Below, one piece after another: positions 11,846 to 21,596 of a stretch of DNA of 22,826 nucleotides. The stretch spans positions 1-22,826 of IMG/VR virus record IMGVR_UViG_3300025319_000110. One strand, given 5' to 3'. Origin of the DNA: a virus. Each line of letters starts with the position of its first letter. Position 1 is the first letter of the stretch. Below the pieces are notes generated by a model, which saw only the letters and a program-made list of their open reading frames with translations, was not told the DNA's origin and did not search any database. The position numbers and the translations under genes were made by a program.

Positions 11846-12381
11846 TGGCCGCCACCACGCTCACCCTGCAAGCAGTCCGGCAACGCCGCGAGGAACTGGC
11901 TGAAAAAAATAATTTCCCGGTCATCCCCGATCATCTGGGGCCGCTGCAACGCCTTGAGTTAGTCAAGCAAGACCCGAATTCCATGAATATCATCAGCCAA
12001 CGCGTCATGGACGGGGAATCGTTGAAGCAAATTGCGGAAAGTTGGGGTCTGCCGGTGCGCCCGTTTTGTCAATGGGTGGCGGATGACCCGGAACGCGCCA
12101 TGGAATACGATGCCGCGCTCAAAATACGGGCGGACGAGTATTATCACGAGACGATATTGATTGCCGACGCCTGTGATGACAAGGACGCCGTGCCGGTGGC
12201 GCGGGTGCAAATGGATGCGCGCCATAAATTCGCCGGAAAACTCGATAAAGAGCGGTTTGGCGATGAAAATCAGGGCAAAGGCGCGGGCAATTCCATCATC
12301 ATCAACATTCAAAGCCTCAATCCGCCGCCAGCCTGCGCGCAACCCGTCATTATTCAGGCGGAAACGGAAGAATTGATCTGA
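11845..12381 (+). CDS. terS: Terminase small subunit, 178 aa
   Basis: The product lies directly before the large subunit and overlaps it as TGATG. It has a helix-turn-helix-like segment (IISQRVMDGESLKQIAESWG, about 44-63) followed by a typical small-terminase core with DADDxxAVPVARVQMDAR-like text and KFAGKLDKERFG. Small subunits bind the packaging site and regulate the large subunit. The ATG at 11845 is chosen over an upstream ATG at 11824, because it begins at the stop of the preceding gene. Confidence 0.85.
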   Translation: MAATTLTLQAVRQRREELAEKNNFPVIPDHLGPLQRLELVKQDPNSMNIISQRVMDGESLKQIAESWGLPVRPFCQWVADDPERAMEYDAALKIRADEYYHETILIADACDDKDAVPVARVQMDARHKFAGKLDKERFGDENQGKGAGNSIIINIQSLNPPPACAQPVIIQAETEELI

Positions 12382-13865
12382 TGGCCGATCTCGTTATTGA
12401 TTACAAGCCACCGGGGCCCGTCGCTGAGCGTTATCTGCATGATGATGCGTTTATTTGCGGCATACGCGGCCCCATTGGATCCGGTAAATCCACTGCTTCC
12501 ATCATCAAACTCATCAAAAACGCGCAGACACAGACGCACGGGCCTGATGGCTGGAAACGCAGGCGCACGGCCATTATCAGGAACACGATGCCGGAATTAA
12601 AAACAACGACCATCAAATCGTGGGAGCAATGGATGCCGAAAACTATCGGCCATTGGCGCGACAACGGCCCGCCGCGCCATTACATCAAAGACCTGCGCAA
12701 TAAATTCGAGTGGGAGGTGTTGTTTGTGGCGCTGGATTCGCCGGAGGACGTGCATAAAGTCCTGTCCATGGAATTGTCCGATTGCTGGGTGAACGAGGCG
12801 CGGGAAATCCCGAAGGCCGTCATTGACGGATTGACGGAACGCATCGGGCGCTACCCGGCGGAACGTGATGGCGGGGCGGCCAATGTACAGTTATTGATGG
12901 ACACCAATTCGCCCGATACCGAGCACTGGTGGTATTGCCTCGCCGAACAGGACCAGAGCACGGAACGCAACCGGCAGATGTTGGCCTCCATGCACAAGGC
13001 TGAAGATGAATTGCGGGCCGTCCATGTGTTGAAAGAGGACCAGAAATTGATGTCGTTTTATGCGCAACCGAGTGGGGTGTCCGCACAAGCAGAAAATATC
13101 GGCAACCTGCGCAAAGGTTATTATCAATTCGCCCAGGCTGGCAAGACTGAAGATCATATTAAAATTTACGTCCACGGCGAATACGGCTTTTCGATGGACG
13201 GGTTGGCAGTGCATCCCGGCTACCGCGAATCCACCCATTGCCGCGAATTCCCGCTGATTAAAGGCTTGCCCATACGGGCGGGCGCCGATTGGGGTCTGAC
13301 CCCGGCGGGCGTCATCACGCAAAGATTGCCGAATGGCCGCTGGCTGGTGCATGATGAATATACCTCGGAGCGCATGGGCATCACCACCTTCGCCGAAGAA
13401 TTTAAACGCAAACTCTCCACGGAATACGCTGACTTTCCCATTGCGAGTTTCAGCGGCGACCCAGCAGGCGACGCCATGAACCCGGACGAAAGCACCTGTT
13501 TTTCCATCATGCGCGCGGCGGGCTTCAAGAATTGCAAACCGGCGCCGACCAATGATCCGACGCGGCGGCGTGAGGCGCTGGATTTTCTATTGCGCACTAT
13601 CATCGACGGCGAACCGGCCATCCTCATTCACCCACGTTGCAAGATGTTGCGCAAGGGACTGATGGGCGGCTACCAGTTCAAGCGCATCCAGACCACGGGC
13701 GATCATTTTCGTGACGTGGCTGACAAGAATATTTTTTCGCACGTGGTCGAGGCGTTGCATTATGATTTGCTTGCGGCGGGGGAAGATCGTAATGTAACAT
13801 TGGGCAAAGGCCCGCATGGAATGAAAGTGATGAGCTATAATACCGATTATCCATTATTCAGTTAG
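12381..13865 (+). CDS. terL: Terminase large subunit, 494 aa
   Basis: This is the packaging motor. The ATPase has Walker A GPIGSGKST at 30-38 and a Walker B-like CWVNEAREI with Glu139. The nuclease (RNase H-like) domain starts near Asp303 in GADWGLTPAG and continues with FSGDPAGD (Asp360, Asp364). The length of 494 residues is usual for podoviral TerL. It follows TerS with a 1-nt overlap and precedes the connector gene, the normal order. Confidence 0.93.
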   Translation: MADLVIDYKPPGPVAERYLHDDAFICGIRGPIGSGKSTASIIKLIKNAQTQTHGPDGWKRRRTAIIRNTMPELKTTTIKSWEQWMPKTIGHWRDNGPPRHYIKDLRNKFEWEVLFVALDSPEDVHKVLSMELSDCWVNEAREIPKAVIDGLTERIGRYPAERDGGAANVQLLMDTNSPDTEHWWYCLAEQDQSTERNRQMLASMHKAEDELRAVHVLKEDQKLMSFYAQPSGVSAQAENIGNLRKGYYQFAQAGKTEDHIKIYVHGEYGFSMDGLAVHPGYRESTHCREFPLIKGLPIRAGADWGLTPAGVITQRLPNGRWLVHDEYTSERMGITTFAEEFKRKLSTEYADFPIASFSGDPAGDAMNPDESTCFSIMRAAGFKNCKPAPTNDPTRRREALDFLLRTIIDGEPAILIHPRCKMLRKGLMGGYQFKRIQTTGDHFRDVADKNIFSHVVEALHYDLLAAGEDRNVTLGKGPHGMKVMSYNTDYPLFS

Positions 13866-14081: not shown

Positions 14082-15722
14082 ATGGCATTGCCTAAAAACG
14101 CGGAAGAAGAAGCTGATAACATCATCCGCGAATTCGAGCAGGCGAAAAGCAACCGCGCCAACTGGGACAGTCATTGGCGTGAAATCGCGGAACGTATCTG
14201 GCCGTCACAATGGACGGCCTTCGCTGCCCAGGGCATGCTGTCCACGACCGGCGAAAAACGCAACCGCGAGGTTTATGATTCCACTGCCGCCATTGCGCTG
14301 ACCCGTTTTGGCGCGATCCTCGATTCTACCATTACCCCCCGCAACGAAATCTGGTCGCGGCCGGTGGCGTCGCTGCTTGAACTCAATAAAAGCCGCCGCG
14401 TGAAACTCTATTTTGATGAGATTAATACGGCGTTGTTTAAATACCGCTATGCGCCAAAATCAAATTTTGTCAGTCAAAATCAGCAAGGCTATAAATCACT
14501 GGGGGCCTTTGGCTCCGGTCCGATGTTTGTAGACCGGCTGTCCGGCGAACCCGGCATCCGTTACCGCAATATCCATCTGTCGGAGATTTATTTTTTCGAG
14601 AACCATCAGGGCATCGTGGACAAATGCATCCGTTATTTCGCATTAACTCTACGCCAGATCGAACAACGCTGGCCGCAACAATTACCGGACAACCTGAAAA
14701 GCAGATTGATTACCCACCCGGAAGATAATGTATTTTTACTGCATTGCGTCAAGCCGCGTAAAGAATATGATCCGGCGCGGCGCGATAACAAAGGGATGCC
14801 CATCGCTTCTTATTACGTCCTGATTGAAGGCAAAAAAATCATGGAAGAAGGTGGCTATCAATCCTTCCCCTATGCCATATCCCGCTACGAACAAGCGCCG
14901 AACGAAGTCTATGGCCGTTCTCCGGCAATGGATGTCTTGCCCGCCATCAAGACACTGAACGAAGAAAAGAAAACCCTGTTAAAGCAGGGTCACCGGCAAA
15001 CTGATCCGATATTGCTTACCCATGATGACGGTGTGCTGGATACGGCGAGCCTCCGGCCCGGATCGGTAATTGCCGGGGGCATGTCGGCGGAAGGCCGCGC
15101 CCTGGTCGGCACGCTCCCGATCGGTAATATCGCCGTCTGCAAGGAATTGATGGACGATGAACGGGCGATCATCAACGATGCGTTTCTGGTAACATTATTC
15201 AGAATTTTGGTGGACTCGCCACAAAAGACGGCGACCCAGGTGATCGAGGAAGCGCGTGAGAAAGGCATCTTGCTGGCCCCGGTGCTGGGGCGCCAGCAAG
15301 CTGAATACCTGGGGCCGATGTTCGAGCGTGAACTCAATGTACTGTCCGAACAACGCCTGATCCCGCCGATGCCGCCGGAACTCATCGAAGCCCGGGGTGA
15401 ATACAAGATTGTGTTTGATTCGCCATTGTCGCGGATTCAACGTAGCGGCGAGGCGGCGGGACTGATCCGCTCGATGGATGCAACACTGCGCATCGTCGAA
15501 GTGACGCAAGACCCGACGCCATTGGATCATTACGACTGGGACACCATTATCCCGGAAATGTCCGATATCAACGGCGTACCGGCGCGCTGGATGCGTTCCG
15601 TCGAAGCCATTGGCGCCATCCGCGACAGCCGTGAACAGGCCAAACAGGCGGCGGAATTGTCGCAAGCCTTGCCCGGTATTGCCGCCGCCATGAAGGGTGG
15701 GGCCGCACTCGCTAAAGCATGA
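14082..15722 (+). CDS. Portal / head-tail connector protein (T7-type), 546 aa
   Basis: The protein matches T7-like connectors: an N-terminal helical part with NWDSHWREIAERIWP (about 26-40), then ALTRFGAILDSTITPRNEIW, GAFGSGPMFVDR and the long-range NLHLSEIYF-type strand. Length fits the 530-560 residues of the family. Twelve copies form the ring at the capsid vertex through which DNA is packaged. It ends in a 4-nt ATGA overlap with the Bbp19-like gene. An Ala/Gln-rich C-terminal tail is usual. Confidence 0.92.
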   Translation: MALPKNAEEEADNIIREFEQAKSNRANWDSHWREIAERIWPSQWTAFAAQGMLSTTGEKRNREVYDSTAAIALTRFGAILDSTITPRNEIWSRPVASLLELNKSRRVKLYFDEINTALFKYRYAPKSNFVSQNQQGYKSLGAFGSGPMFVDRLSGEPGIRYRNIHLSEIYFFENHQGIVDKCIRYFALTLRQIEQRWPQQLPDNLKSRLITHPEDNVFLLHCVKPRKEYDPARRDNKGMPIASYYVLIEGKKIMEEGGYQSFPYAISRYEQAPNEVYGRSPAMDVLPAIKTLNEEKKTLLKQGHRQTDPILLTHDDGVLDTASLRPGSVIAGGMSAEGRALVGTLPIGNIAVCKELMDDERAIINDAFLVTLFRILVDSPQKTATQVIEEAREKGILLAPVLGRQQAEYLGPMFERELNVLSEQRLIPPMPPELIEARGEYKIVFDSPLSRIQRSGEAAGLIRSMDATLRIVEVTQDPTPLDHYDWDTIIPEMSDINGVPARWMRSVEAIGAIRDSREQAKQAAELSQALPGIAAAMKGGAALAKA

Positions 15723-15988
15723 CCAACGCTGTTGAAATCGTAAAAAACTTTCTCAAGAACCGGAGACAGGCGTATATTGCTACGTTCCTCGGCACGGGGG
15801 CAGATGGCGAAGCCGTATTAAAAGATCTGGCGCGTTTTTGCCGTGCCAATAGAAGTACGTTTAATCCTGATCCATATCTTGCTGCCAGACTGGATGGCCG
15901 TAGGGAATGTTGGTTAAGAATAATGGAACATGTAAATTTAACAGAAGAACAATTATATAAATTATATGGCAGGAATATAGATACTTGA
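15719..15988 (+). CDS. Bbp19-like phage protein, 89 aa, with recoded 3' end
   Basis: The sequence RRQAYIATFLGTGADGEAVL with FCRANRSTFNPDP and GRRECWLRIMEHVNL matches the small protein encoded between connector and scaffold in BPP-1-type phages (Bbp19). Its exact role is unknown. From about 15850 the codons become AT-rich, unlike the first half. The last 48 nt encode TEEQLYKLYGRNIDT, and a diverged copy encoding TEDQLYKLYGRNIDD stands 403 nt downstream beyond the HNH gene. The present 3' end therefore seems to have been supplied by the inserted HNH element. Confidence 0.8.
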   Translation: MTNAVEIVKNFLKNRRQAYIATFLGTGADGEAVLKDLARFCRANRSTFNPDPYLAARLDGRRECWLRIMEHVNLTEEQLYKLYGRNIDT

Positions 15989-16021
15989 TTGTTCCACGAT
16001 TGACAATAGGTTACTGTCAAC

Positions 16022-16363
16022 ATGAGGGAAAGATTACCCAAGAATAGTGGTTTATGTTCGCGTTGTCATGGCCCAAGAAGTAATGCAGAAAAGAGATATT
16101 GTAAAACATGCCATGCAGCATGGATGCGCGAACATAGGCCAAAATATAGTGATTTAACTGATGAACAAAGGCAGAGGTCAAATGCCAGAGCTTATGCCCA
16201 TGTTTACCGAGACAGGGGAAAACTAATAAAGCAATCTTGTGAACAATGTGGTGACGAAAACTCTCAGATACACCATGATGATTATTCTAAGCCACTTGAG
16301 ATTAAATGGTTATGCCGTAAACACCATTTAGAATTACACAGCAACCGAAGATCAGTTGTATAA
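16022..16363 (+). CDS. HNH homing endonuclease, 113 aa
   Basis: A treble-clef-like N-terminal zinc part (Cys12, Cys15, Cys27, Cys30) is followed by a basic linker and an HNH core: SCEQCG (Cys73, Cys76), IHHDD (His84-His85-Asp86) and WLCRKHHLELH (Cys98, His101, His102, His106). All catalytic and zinc residues are present, so it should be active. Such enzymes cut at or near their insertion site and spread by repair copying. The last six residues (NRRSVV) are read from the relic of the Bbp19-like tail in another frame. A TTGACA/TGTCAA inverted repeat (about 16000-16020) precedes the start. Confidence 0.9.
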   Translation: MRERLPKNSGLCSRCHGPRSNAEKRYCKTCHAAWMREHRPKYSDLTDEQRQRSNARAYAHVYRDRGKLIKQSCEQCGDENSQIHHDDYSKPLEIKWLCRKHHLELHSNRRSVV

Positions 16364-16391
16364 ACTTTATGGGAGAAACATAGATGACTGA
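16344..16391 (+). pseudogene. Relic of the original Bbp19-like 3' end
   Basis: These 16 codons read TEDQLYKLYGRNIDD and stop. They match the last 16 codons of the upstream gene at 36 of 48 bases and 13 of 15 residues. The stop overlaps the scaffold start (ATGACTGA), the kind of coupling expected if this was once the true end of the Bbp19-like gene. It still carries the GGGAG ribosome site for the scaffold gene. Confidence 0.85.
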
Positions 16392-17220
16392 ACCACTCGT
16401 AGCCGCATCCGCGACAACTACAGCAGAGAGTATTACACAAGACACCACCACCACGGCCACAGCCCCCGTCTGGACGGACGGACTGCCGCAAGAAACACTC
16501 GGCTTTGTCGAAAAGAAAGGCTGGAAAGGGAACGCCGATGTGATCACCAGTTATCAGAACCTTGAAAAACTCCACGGCGTCCCGGCGGAACGCATCATCA
16601 AACTGCCGGAAAAACTCGAAGGCGCGGAGATGGACGTTATTTATAACCGGCTGGGGCGACCGGAAAAACCGGATGGCTACAAAATTCCGGTGCCGGAAGG
16701 CGAGGATGCCGCTTTTTCCAAGACCGCCGCGACCTGGTTTCATAAACACGGTCTATCGGCAAAACAAGCGGAAGGACTGGCAACGGACTGGAATGATTAT
16801 GCCAAGACCATACGCGAGGGCGAAACGCAAAAATCGCAAACCGCCGCCAATGAAGCGGTTGCCGCTCTTAAAACCAAATGGGGCGCAGCTTACGAGCAGA
16901 AGACGAAAATTGTCGATCAGACGGCGACCTCGCTCGGGCTGACTAAAGATGATTTGCTGGGCCTGCGTACCGCGCTGGGGCCGGGGCGGGCGATGGAGTT
17001 TATCTATAATCTCGGGACCAAGATGGGCGAGGCGGATTTTATTACCGGCGAAACTGCGCCTGATTTCGGTTCTGGCATCCTGACCCCGGAACAGGCCAAA
17101 CGCAAAATCGGCTTATTGCGCGAAGATACTGACTTTGTGAAGCGCTATACCTCCGGCAATGTACAAGCCAAGCTCGAAATGGAACAGCTTTCTAAATGGG
17201 CTTATCCGGATCCGGTTTAA
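16384..17220 (+). CDS. Capsid scaffolding protein, 278 aa
   Basis: The protein sits between connector and capsid genes, as scaffolds do, and is charged and helical, with a Thr/Ala-rich flexible N-terminus. Recognisable text includes YQNLEKLHGVPAERIIKLP, LGRPEKPDGYKIPVPEG and a C-terminal basic helix (LTPEQAKRKIGLL), shared by BPP-1-like scaffolds. It would guide assembly of the procapsid and leave before or during packaging. GGGAG lies about 9 nt upstream, within the relic of the previous gene. Confidence 0.8.
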   Translation: MTEPLVAASATTTAESITQDTTTTATAPVWTDGLPQETLGFVEKKGWKGNADVITSYQNLEKLHGVPAERIIKLPEKLEGAEMDVIYNRLGRPEKPDGYKIPVPEGEDAAFSKTAATWFHKHGLSAKQAEGLATDWNDYAKTIREGETQKSQTAANEAVAALKTKWGAAYEQKTKIVDQTATSLGLTKDDLLGLRTALGPGRAMEFIYNLGTKMGEADFITGETAPDFGSGILTPEQAKRKIGLLREDTDFVKRYTSGNVQAKLEMEQLSKWAYPDPV

Positions 17221-17248: not shown

Positions 17249-17560
17249 ATGAAAACATGCTCTTGTTGTGGCGCAATTAAATCATTTACTGAATTTCATA
17301 AATGTGAAAGAGGGATAGGCGGAGTAAGGGGTGATTGTATTGTTTGTTTTCGTTTAAAGGCGGCTATTAGACATAGAAAAAAACCATCAATAATGCGAGC
17401 AAGAGTCGCTGAATGGAAAAAAAATAATAAACAAAAAGTCAATAATCAGCTAAAAAAATATAGAGATGCGAATAAAGGAAAAGTGGCATTTGCCATAAAA
17501 AGATGGGGCATGAAGCATCCAGAAAAAGCACTTGCAAAGACTCGGAAGTATGTACTTTAG
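17249..17560 (+). pseudogene. N-terminal part of an HNH endonuclease gene split by a mobile element
   Basis: The protein begins MKTCSCCGAIKSFTEFHK with zinc cysteines (Cys4/Cys7 and Cys30/Cys33) and a long basic helix of N-x-x-K-V repeats, the usual N-terminal half of phage HNH proteins. The HNH core is absent. The native frame ends at 17542, where a terminal inverted repeat begins; the last residues KYVL are read from the element. The missing core is found at 19770-19999. There is no clear ribosome site. Confidence 0.85.
17543..17559 (+). repeat. Left terminal inverted repeat
   Basis: This 17-bp sequence matches the inverted sequence at the right end perfectly. The first stop after the HNH fragment (TAG, 17558-17560) lies at its inner edge. 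Confidence 0.88.
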
Positions 17561-17604
17561 TAAACCCAGCGCCAGCAAAGGGTTACAGAAGGGGTAATTT
17601 TTAG

Positions 17605-18360: not shown

Positions 18361-18442
18361 CCCCGGTTGGCGGAAACGGAGACGCAGTGGCTTTGGGAGT
18401 CACCGGCATTACGCCTTGAGGGTTCGATCCCCTCACCGGGGA
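18361..18442 (+). tRNA. Class II tRNA, Leu-like body with UGG (Pro) anticodon
   Basis: The acceptor CCCCGGT (18361-18367) pairs with ACCGGGG (18435-18441), with A73 at 18442; CCA is not fully encoded (CCT follows). The D arm is GCG/CGC (18370-18372, 18383-18385) with the GG and AGAC features of tRNA-Leu. The anticodon stem GTGGC/GTCAC encloses TTTGGGA, so the anticodon is TGG (18394-18396). A long variable arm GGC-ATTAC-GCC makes it class II. The T arm GAGGG-TTCGATC-CCCTC is perfect. Body and anticodon disagree: leucine-like shape, proline anticodon, with C1:G72, A73, G35 and G36 as proline identity elements. Confidence 0.85.
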
Positions 18443-18470
18443 CCTTTGTTTAGTTTGGAGATGGTGTCGT

Positions 18471-19728: not shown

Positions 19729-19744
19729 ATTAAACTATGTTTCG

Positions 19745-19761
19745 TAAAGTACATACTTCCG
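19745..19761 (-). repeat. Right terminal inverted repeat
   Basis: This is the exact inverse of the left terminal repeat. It is followed directly by the second copy of CAAAGACT and then by HNH coding sequence. Confidence 0.88.
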
Positions 19762-19769
19762 CAAAGACT

Positions 19770-19999
19770 GCAAAACGAGGGCCGCACAAAAAAATGCAAT
19801 ACCAAAATGGGCAAATTTTGAAAAAATAGAACAAATTTATCATAAAGCACGAATATCTGGCCTCGAAGTAGATCATATTATCCCATTGATAAGTAATAAA
19901 GTTTGTGGCTTTCATTGTGAAGATAATCTGCAACTTTTGTCTAGGACAGACAACATCAGCAAAGGTAATCATTATTGGCCTGATGGATTTTTTAATTAA
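19770..19999 (+). pseudogene. C-terminal HNH core of the split endonuclease gene
   Basis: After the second target copy, coding sequence resumes with AIPKWANFEKIEQIYHKARI, then EVDHIIPL, CEDNLQLLSRTDNISKGN and HYWPDGFFN before TAA at 19997-19999. This is a complete HNH catalytic core. Joining it to 17249-17542 gives ALAKTAKR and then needs a one-base shift, near CGAGG or in the run of seven A at 19788-19794. The gene is therefore both interrupted and frameshifted. Confidence 0.85.
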
Positions 20000-20180: not shown

Positions 20181-20196
20181 GAGAATGATTATTCTC
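20181..20196 (+). promoter_or_regulatory. Hairpin just before the capsid ribosome site
   Basis: GAGAAT (20181-20186) and ATTCTC (20191-20196) form a 6-bp stem with a GATT loop, 7 nt before the AGGAGA site. A stem here commonly protects or times a highly expressed message. The rest of 20033-20180 shows nothing I can identify. Confidence 0.45.
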
Positions 20197-20217
20197 ATTT
20201 TCCAGGAGAGCATTGTA

Positions 20218-21114
20218 ATGTCCGTAAATATACCTTCGTGGTACGTCCAGCAATATTCCACCAACATCGATCTGTTGTTACAGCAGAAGGGCTCCAAGCT
20301 CTCCAGCGCTGTTTCAATGGGTTCTTATGTCGGCACCCAGGCCTCTCCCGTCGATCAAGTAGGTTCGATTGAAGCCAATACGGTCACCTCGCGTTTCGCC
20401 GATATGCCGCGTATTGATGCCGCACTTTCCCGGCGCTGGGTCACACCGACCGATTACGATGTGCCGCAGTTGATTGACAGCTTTGATAAATTGCGCCTCC
20501 TGACCGATCCGGGCAGCCGTTATGTTGAAAATGCGGTTTATGCCCTGGGCCGCAAGAAAGATACCGCCATCATCAATGCCTTTACCGATGCCGCGAAAAC
20601 CGGCGTCGCTGGTGCTGGCAGCACCATCTTTACCGCCGCCAATGAAGTGGATGTCTCCACCGGCGGCGCCAACTCACGCCTCAATGTCGCCAAAATCAAG
20701 GCCGTTAAGGAACTCATGCGGGCCAACTTCGTGGACTTTGACAACGATCCGGTCTATATCGGCCTGACCGCCAAAGACGAATCCTCTTTGCTGGAGGATA
20801 TCCAGATGGTATCCTCTGACTTCAATCAGAGGGACACCCCGGTTTTGCAGGACGGAAAGTTGACCCGTTTCCTCGGCATGAATTTCATTTATTGCGAACT
20901 GATTGAAAGCGTGGCTGCCGGTACGAATGAAGTGGATGTGCCGGTGTGGGCAAAATCAGGGATGCACTTGGGCGTGTGGAATGAAATACAGGCTTCAATT
21001 ACGGTGCGCAATGACATCCAGAGCGAACCGTGGCAAGCCTATGTCAAGATGACCTGCGGCGCGACCCGGCTTGAGGAAAACAAGGTATATTCAATAGAGA
21101 GCTATAGAGCATAA
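20218..21114 (+). CDS. Major capsid protein, 298 aa
   Basis: The start MSVNIPSWYVQQYSTNIDLL follows AGGAGA by 8 nt; upstream in-frame ATGs have no ribosome site. Text such as MGSYVGTQASPVDQVGSIEA, DYDVPQLIDSFDKLRLLTDP and WNEIQASITVRND is typical of the podoviral (BPP-1-like) capsid family. Length is shorter than most (about 330), mainly at the C-terminus, which ends VYSIESYRA in AT-rich codons unlike the rest. It overlaps the LAGLIDADG gene as TAATG. Confidence 0.9.
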   Translation: MSVNIPSWYVQQYSTNIDLLLQQKGSKLSSAVSMGSYVGTQASPVDQVGSIEANTVTSRFADMPRIDAALSRRWVTPTDYDVPQLIDSFDKLRLLTDPGSRYVENAVYALGRKKDTAIINAFTDAAKTGVAGAGSTIFTAANEVDVSTGGANSRLNVAKIKAVKELMRANFVDFDNDPVYIGLTAKDESSLLEDIQMVSSDFNQRDTPVLQDGKLTRFLGMNFIYCELIESVAAGTNEVDVPVWAKSGMHLGVWNEIQASITVRNDIQSEPWQAYVKMTCGATRLEENKVYSIESYRA

Positions 21115-21596
21115 TGGCTTTAAATATTACAGATATTTACTGGCTGGCCGGATTTATGGACGGTGAAGCATGTTTTTCTATGTGGGGCAAAACGCCATCT
21201 ATCACGATAGCGCAAAAGGAAATGTGGCCACTTGAAAAAGTACATAAACTTGTTGGTGGTAAATTCTATAAATTCAAGAATTGGGGAACCAATAAAGAAA
21301 CTTTTTATAATTCCCTGCATATTCATGGCAAACGCGCTATCGGCCTGATGATGACGCTTTATTCTTTGTTGTCCCCAAGGCGACAAGAAAAGATTGAAGA
21401 AATCATTGCCAAATGGAAATTAATACCTTGCCGTGGAGAACATAACAGAATCAAAACTCATTGCAAACGCGGTCATGAATTTACGGAACAAAATACATAC
21501 ATGAAAGCAGACGGTTCTGGCCGTGAATGTAGGAAATGCCAGAAGATACATAACGAAAAGTATCTCTCAAAGAAACAAGTTTTACAGATAGCTTAA
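21114..21596 (+). CDS. LAGLIDADG homing endonuclease, 160 aa
   Basis: YWLAGFMDGEACF (9-21) is a LAGLIDADG motif with the catalytic acid near Asp16/Glu18. Only one motif is evident, so the protein may act as a dimer. A C-terminal zinc finger follows (Cys117, His121, Cys139, Cys142), of the type attached to phage homing enzymes. The gene is AT-rich, overlaps the capsid stop by one base, and is clearly an insertion between capsid and cement genes. Its last residues KKQVLQIA may derive from the original capsid tail. Confidence 0.85.
   Translation: MALNITDIYWLAGFMDGEACFSMWGKTPSITIAQKEMWPLEKVHKLVGGKFYKFKNWGTNKETFYNSLHIHGKRAIGLMMTLYSLLSPRRQEKIEEIIAKWKLIPCRGEHNRIKTHCKRGHEFTEQNTYMKADGSGRECRKCQKIHNEKYLSKKQVLQIA

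Follow-up and report, generated by a model that had tools for sequence, protein, structure and literature searches.

In the genome of a tailed phage, a free-standing HNH endonuclease gene (hereinafter HNH1) is located between a Bbp19-like gene and a scaffold-like gene, and the 3' end of the Bbp19-like gene occurs twice, once on each side of the insertion. The comparison with the closest relative lacking this gene (L011) indicates that a resident L011-like phage, in which Bbp19 overlapped the scaffold gene, now harbors a foreign Bbp19 gene, the HNH gene and the last 48 nt of its own Bbp19. This organization is probably the outcome of a homing-type insertion, whose mobile unit would consist of the endonuclease gene and, ahead of it, a diverged 3' portion of the gene targeted.

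Organization of the Bbp19-scaffold region

The stretch of DNA analyzed (the window) is a 22.8-kb IMG/VR record (22,826 nt). The relevant features are the following:

12381-13865: terminase gene
14082-15722: portal (head-tail connector) gene (PF12236)
15719-15988, + strand: Bbp19-like gene, a foreign allele in whole or for most of its length, with the functional 3' end (PF25181, E=9.7e-17)
15941-15988, + strand: left copy of the Bbp19 tail, foreign and expressed (36/48 nt identical to the right copy)
15989-16021, + strand: spacer between Bbp19 and the HNH gene, read directly from the sequence
16022-16363, + strand: free-standing HNH endonuclease gene HNH1, 113 aa (phrog_2340 endonuclease, E=5.5e-14)
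16343: right junction between foreign and native DNA (87 nt equal to L011 rightward, 0 nt leftward)
16344-16391, + strand: remnant of the native 3' end of Bbp19, which is no longer translated as part of that gene (100% to L011)
16384-17220, + strand: resident scaffold-like gene (phrog_3742, E=7.7e-37; 94% nt identity to L011)
20185-21114: capsid gene (PF19821)
21072-21114, + strand: recoded capsid 3' end, upstream of HEG2 (12 mismatches to L011 in 43 nt)
21114-21596, + strand: second free-standing endonuclease gene, HEG2 (phrog_1492/5046 HNH endonuclease, E about 1e-12)

An RNA-binding protein of the TROVE/Ro60 type, which includes a vWA domain, is also encoded in the window, at 731-2044 on the - strand (PF05731, E=3.8e-18; PF25045, E=1.2e-6), and no Y-RNA-like Rfam match was found in the window.

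The Bbp19-like ORF ends as TEEQLYKLYGRNIDT, and positions 16344-16391 read TEDQLYKLYGRNIDD followed by a stop codon, this right copy overlapping the scaffold start as ATGACTGA. The two tails are identical at 36/48 bases and 13/15 residues, and have in common the peptide T-E-(E/D)-Q-L-Y-K-L-Y-G-R-N-I-D; seven codons are identical, seven are synonymous and two are non-synonymous. At the protein level, the tail scored 71 against the sequence that follows the HNH gene, and since no shuffle attained this value (0/100 and 0/200), the similarity is not due to chance. The second copy was also recovered by an independent search (E=8e-5), and a codon-blind search for QLYKLYGRN[hydrophobic]D gave two occurrences only in the window's own lineage.

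In L011, whose portal gene is about 90% identical to that of the window, Bbp19 runs directly into the scaffold gene (...AACATAAATTTA followed by ACCGAAGATCAGTTGTATAAACTTTATGGGAGAAACATAGATGACTGAACC...). From 16343, a point lying between a Leu and a Thr codon of the native Bbp19 tail, the two genomes are identical for 87 nt rightward, and not one base matches leftward. Other relatives (L012/L006 and L005) are also devoid of an HNH gene at Bbp19 and possess a single tail of the right-copy type, the right tail of the window being 95% identical over 42 nt to those of L012/L005. No HNH-less relative was found to carry the left tail or both tails. The original prediction, which had described two tails and the overlap of the right one with the scaffold gene and had anticipated that HNH-less relatives would pass directly from Bbp19 to the 16344-16391 sequence, with neither the left tail nor both, is therefore borne out on these points. 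The right copy is thus the native end and the left copy the foreign one, because L011 matches the former and no HNH-less relative has the latter, alone or together with the other.

At the other 83 Bbp19 loci, an HNH gene of the HNH1 family behind Bbp19 is absent in every case (83/83), and the scaffold start mostly overlaps the Bbp19 stop or lies a few bases from it. In the window, the left copy completes Bbp19 with its own stop codon; the right fragment retains, as in L011, a GGGAG ahead of the scaffold start, presumably serving the scaffold gene as a ribosome-binding sequence, as well as the ATGACTGA overlap. Since the right fragment carries this putative ribosome-binding sequence and the start overlap, both genes flanking the insertion remain whole. 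The final six codons of the HNH gene (NRRSVV) and its stop, from 16343, correspond to the native Bbp19 tail read in another frame.

The tail, which the original prediction had described as AT-rich, is confirmed as such (GC 0.26 in the window), but the HNH-less relatives have values of 0.34-0.36; since AT-richness is also a property of the native tails, it is by itself a weak argument for recoding.

Extent of the foreign stretch

The sliding identity between the window and L011 is about 0.90 in the portal gene, 0.65-0.68 from the start to the stop of Bbp19, and 1.00 from 16344 onward. The divergence from the nearest relative starts at the Bbp19 start (about 15702-15719), and position 15850, at which the range given in the original prediction begins, does not coincide with any boundary. 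Similarly, the idea of a GC-rich resident 5' part joined to a recoded 3' end does not agree with a Bbp19 gene that is 65-68% identical to that of L011 at the nucleotide level throughout, next to a portal gene at about 90%. At the amino acid level, Bbp19 is 84% identical to that of L005 and 70% to that of L011. L012 gives the same identity profile as L011 save for the middle of Bbp19, in which it is L011 that deviates; the center of the L011 gene looks as if it had been replaced in turn, and comparisons between the 5' and 3' parts are therefore blurred. The third-position identity at unchanged residues is 0.46 in the left tail, 1.00 in the right tail and 0.77 in the portal gene.

Since the identity to L011 falls across the whole gene, the foreign piece consists of the HNH gene together with Bbp19, in whole or for the most part, rather than of the tail alone, and this does not establish a recoded tail as a discrete cargo. 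Hence, the proposal that the endonuclease brought along the recoded 3' end of its target holds insofar as a foreign working end was imported and the native end left behind, but the import involves most or all of Bbp19. The mainly synonymous changes in the left copy are as expected for an imported gene that would still be working. As for the donor of the left tail or of Bbp19, none was found in IMG/VR (searched with back-translated patterns) or in bacterial and archaeal genomes, where only members of the same lineage and distant relatives were retrieved.

Endonuclease genes and the ends of neighboring genes

HEG2 is present downstream of the capsid gene in the window and in L005/L036, and absent in L011 and L037. 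The capsid genes of the window and L011 are identical over 335 nt and then differ at 12 positions in the last 43 nt, mostly synonymously and with IESYRA kept. L036 (with HEG2) and L037 (without it) share 98-99% identity in the 3.3 kb preceding this point and in the 1.2 kb following it, and their capsid genes differ at 12 of the 30 final nt, a density that is reached at one other place only in 3.37 kb. No leftover capsid tail was found behind HEG2. On the basis of these alignments, three comparisons show an endonuclease gene adjoining an upstream gene with an altered end, the residual fragment being seen only at HNH1.

Some further observations were made in this part of the genome. In L045, whose capsid is 60% identical, a decayed HEG2-like start follows the capsid stop and reads RDIHWLAGFLDGE before a stop codon. 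In L036 (3869-4889) and in the matching part of L037, the gene after the capsid gene is present in two tandem copies, about 69% identical. A third HNH gene lies between the scaffold and capsid genes of the window (17249-17542 plus about 19762-19998) and is interrupted by an element of 2.2 kb. This element has inverted ends of 23 bp (17543-17565 / 19739-19761, 91% complementary), and its insertion apparently duplicated an 8-bp target, CAAAGACT; the empty site was displayed by rejoining the flanks of the gene in a script. The element carries a tRNA-Pro(TGG) gene (18361-18444), and no transposase was recognized in it. The scaffold tail beside this third gene was considered as a further case of recoding (0.73 versus 0.91 to L011), but HNH-less relatives diverge there too and the comparison is uninformative.

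The HNH1 enzyme and its family

The HNH1 protein was not recognized above cut-off in Pfam and NCBIfam. Its AlphaFold2 model (pLDDT 85.5) has as its best solved match the Gme HNH nicking endonuclease 4h9d (Z 5.8 over 63 residues, a middling score), and Foldseek alone retrieved nothing at E<=0.001. The relatives of HNH1 in GenBank phages (L147-L158) are located directly after an SSB-type gene in all the annotated or readable cases (11/11); the upstream products end in an acidic tip of the DxDxIPF type, characteristic of single-stranded DNA-binding proteins, or in a near variant of it, and are mostly annotated so. In Carltongylesvirus, a member of the family is present next to ssb in 2KOFFS and TH29 and absent in phiEcoM-GJ1, TH53, flopper and others. 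This presence/absence supports the view that the HNH1 family represents a mobile free-standing endonuclease elsewhere. A 41.8-kb sister contig of the window phage contains one HNH1 copy and no SSB match, and these data as a whole support a location of the window copy away from what would be the usual site of the family.

No leftover tail fragment was found behind the ssb-linked relatives (11 GenBank phages) or at 16 other HNH loci. In the pairs of genomes with and without HNH1 at ssb, the ssb end is free of marked recoding, so that the rule of the recoded tail fails for some members of the family; the leftover-tail layout is not a fixed HNH1-family trait. Among about 3,245 gene ends scanned, no second HEG-linked tail fragment came to light, the other high scorers being judged by eye to be tandem paralogues, an HNH-HNH pair (L130) and low-complexity frames.

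Origin of the insertion

On the basis of established homing biology, the HNH enzyme would have cut the native Bbp19 near the Leu and Thr codons found at the junction, and the left end would have been repaired by copying the donor through its Bbp19 and HNH genes. The right end might have been joined at the junction via a matching tail fragment, if the donor possessed one, or otherwise by illegitimate joining; a fragment already present in the donor would have acted as the right homology arm, as proposed for the WHO elements of yeasts (PMC7282813), to whose mode of operation the whole course of events would correspond. The foreign Bbp19 end might differ enough to escape the HNH enzyme, and a putative resistance to cutting through its 12 base differences is plausible. 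A homing event is favored by the junction present in L011, by an identity to L011 whose fall coincides exactly with Bbp19 and which is back at 100% past the HNH gene, by the lack of HNH1-family genes behind Bbp19 at the 83 other loci, by the recoded capsid ends next to HEG2 and by the mobility of the HNH1 family elsewhere.

The same organization might be the outcome of ordinary mosaicism, that is, of the recombination of a diverged Bbp19-HNH segment, through homology at its left end and by illegitimate joining at its right end, with the HNH gene as a passenger and the tail as a scar, retained because it carries the ribosome-binding site of the scaffold gene. Mosaic patches without a nearby endonuclease gene do occur in these phages (the middle of the capsid gene in L036/L037 and the center of Bbp19 in L011), which counts against the homing reading, as do the lack of a donor among the sequences searched and the absence of a tail fragment behind the ssb-linked HNH1 relatives; moreover, Bbp19 would have been imported as an entire gene, and homing is here deduced from sequence. 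Even so, mosaicism appears unlikely, since the right junction falls exactly at the end of the HNH gene, within a pair of overlapping genes that are otherwise tightly joined in 83 relatives, and at two further endonuclease genes of the cluster the end of the upstream gene is likewise diverged on one side only.

The nearly identical peptide encoded by the two tails might also suggest that the tail was doubled in place when the HNH gene was inserted, the left copy having then changed under selection against cutting. This is quite improbable, because a single event can age neither one copy only nor a whole gene, and in the window the right copy is equal to L011, whereas the divergence of the left one and of the remainder of Bbp19 greatly exceeds that of the flanking genes. 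Nor could a recent doubling in place produce the third-position identities given above. A self-splicing intron, or another processed element, would have the right tail as its true second exon, in agreement with the ancestral position that this tail occupies; the left copy, however, already gives the gene a complete end and a stop codon. The intron was rejected, as no Rfam intron family matched the window at gathering thresholds, and the whole class of explanations is highly improbable. As the window is a metagenome contig, an assembly chimera might be thought of, but it is scarcely credible: the 800 nt at 15701-16500 are exact in two other assemblies (IMG/VR contigs 3300025174_000280 and 3300025326_000090), and the locus is therefore not a one-off chimera. 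A homing-type insertion is thus retained as the preferred reading.

Comparison with known systems

When phage genes overlap and are tightly packed, the entry of an endonuclease gene should destroy them. The locus described here represents a readable solution, in which a working upstream gene would have been brought along and the native end retained for the downstream gene. The original prediction had likened it to integrases that restore tRNA ends; the likeness holds as an analogy, but much closer parallels exist in the yeast WHO elements (PMC7282813) and in the hybrids of fungal mitochondrial mORFs (PMC3630166).

Among phage systems, the T4-type free-standing homing endonucleases (Seg, Mob) share, according to the available part of PMC2988022, an HNH or GIY-YIG gene placed between conserved genes and absent in relatives. 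They are described there as simple intergenic insertions with co-conversion of the flanks, and no leftover native gene end was found in that part of the article; in the window, co-converted sequence is present on the left flank only (Bbp19 at HNH1, the capsid tail at HEG2). In the phage HEG islands (Barth et al. 2023), endonuclease genes edge exchanged segments of essential genes, and the available portion of that article (PMC10448857) yielded no replaced gene end with a residual fragment. A group I intron carrying an HNH enzyme is not matched, given that there is no Rfam hit in the window and that the left copy has its own stop. No earlier phage case of a replaced end with a residual fragment was found in the open-access literature (subscription papers were outside the search). 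The layout is thus known from yeasts and fungal mitochondria, and for the bacterial virus as a new host no earlier report was found.

In the mORF hybrids of Glomus sp. (atp6, atp9, cox2 and nad3) and Allomyces (atp6), described by Beaudet et al. 2013, the residual native C-terminus is 91-98% identical to a relative, versus 64-81% for the insert (PMC3630166). These hybrids share with the window the order of the three parts, i.e., a foreign in-frame C-terminus, an endonuclease ORF and a residual native C-terminus, as well as a residual end near-identical to a relative and a foreign end differing mostly synonymously. They differ in that the enzymes are LAGLIDADG or GIY-YIG and reside in mtDNA, unlike the HNH enzyme of a phage structural operon, and in that the foreign portion is limited to the C-terminus; for the fungal hybrids, expression was tested.

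The WHO elements of Torulaspora and Lachancea yeasts (Coughlan et al. 2020, PMC7282813) consist of an endonuclease gene that immediately follows its target gene. The target has received a diverged 3' end in exchange for its own, and a fragment of the older 3' end lies further downstream, as at 16344-16391 of the window (100% to L011). Resistance is attributed to the new end, and the role of a second homology arm to the fragment (PMC7282813). The WHO enzyme is HO-like, with intein and zinc-finger parts, and occurs in multi-copy clusters on eukaryotic chromosomes, whereas that of the window is an HNH enzyme (phrog_2340, HNH fold) encoded once in a phage structural-gene operon. Allele-specific cutting was shown for the yeasts, and for the window locus it would be a prediction. 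The alleles of the WHO targets are near-identical upstream of the cut and diverged downstream of it, whereas the Bbp19 of the window is diverged along its whole length, the WHO pattern being present only in the capsid gene at HEG2. Besides, the fragment of the window, unlike that of the WHO elements, also constitutes the translation start of the next gene. As both the enzyme family and the host differ, the locus belongs neither to the WHO elements nor to the fungal mORF hybrids.

The existence of a WHO-like homing layout with an HNH enzyme in a phage is well supported, and mobility and immunity would follow from it by inference. A broader and more tentative idea, possible but rather doubtful, is that WHO-like homing units might be a general phage strategy, in which endonuclease genes from several families would be accompanied by a 3' end of the targeted structural gene that is diverged and resists cutting, and would repeatedly rewrite the gene ends of the capsid operon, the leftover native end acting both as homology arm and as translation start of the next gene. 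If the enzyme of the window cuts the native tail only, the WHO mode, that is, resistance by allele replacement rather than by splitting of the site, would extend from yeasts and fungal mitochondria to phages and to a third nuclease family, and would help to explain the abrupt changes at the 3' ends of phage structural genes between close relatives.
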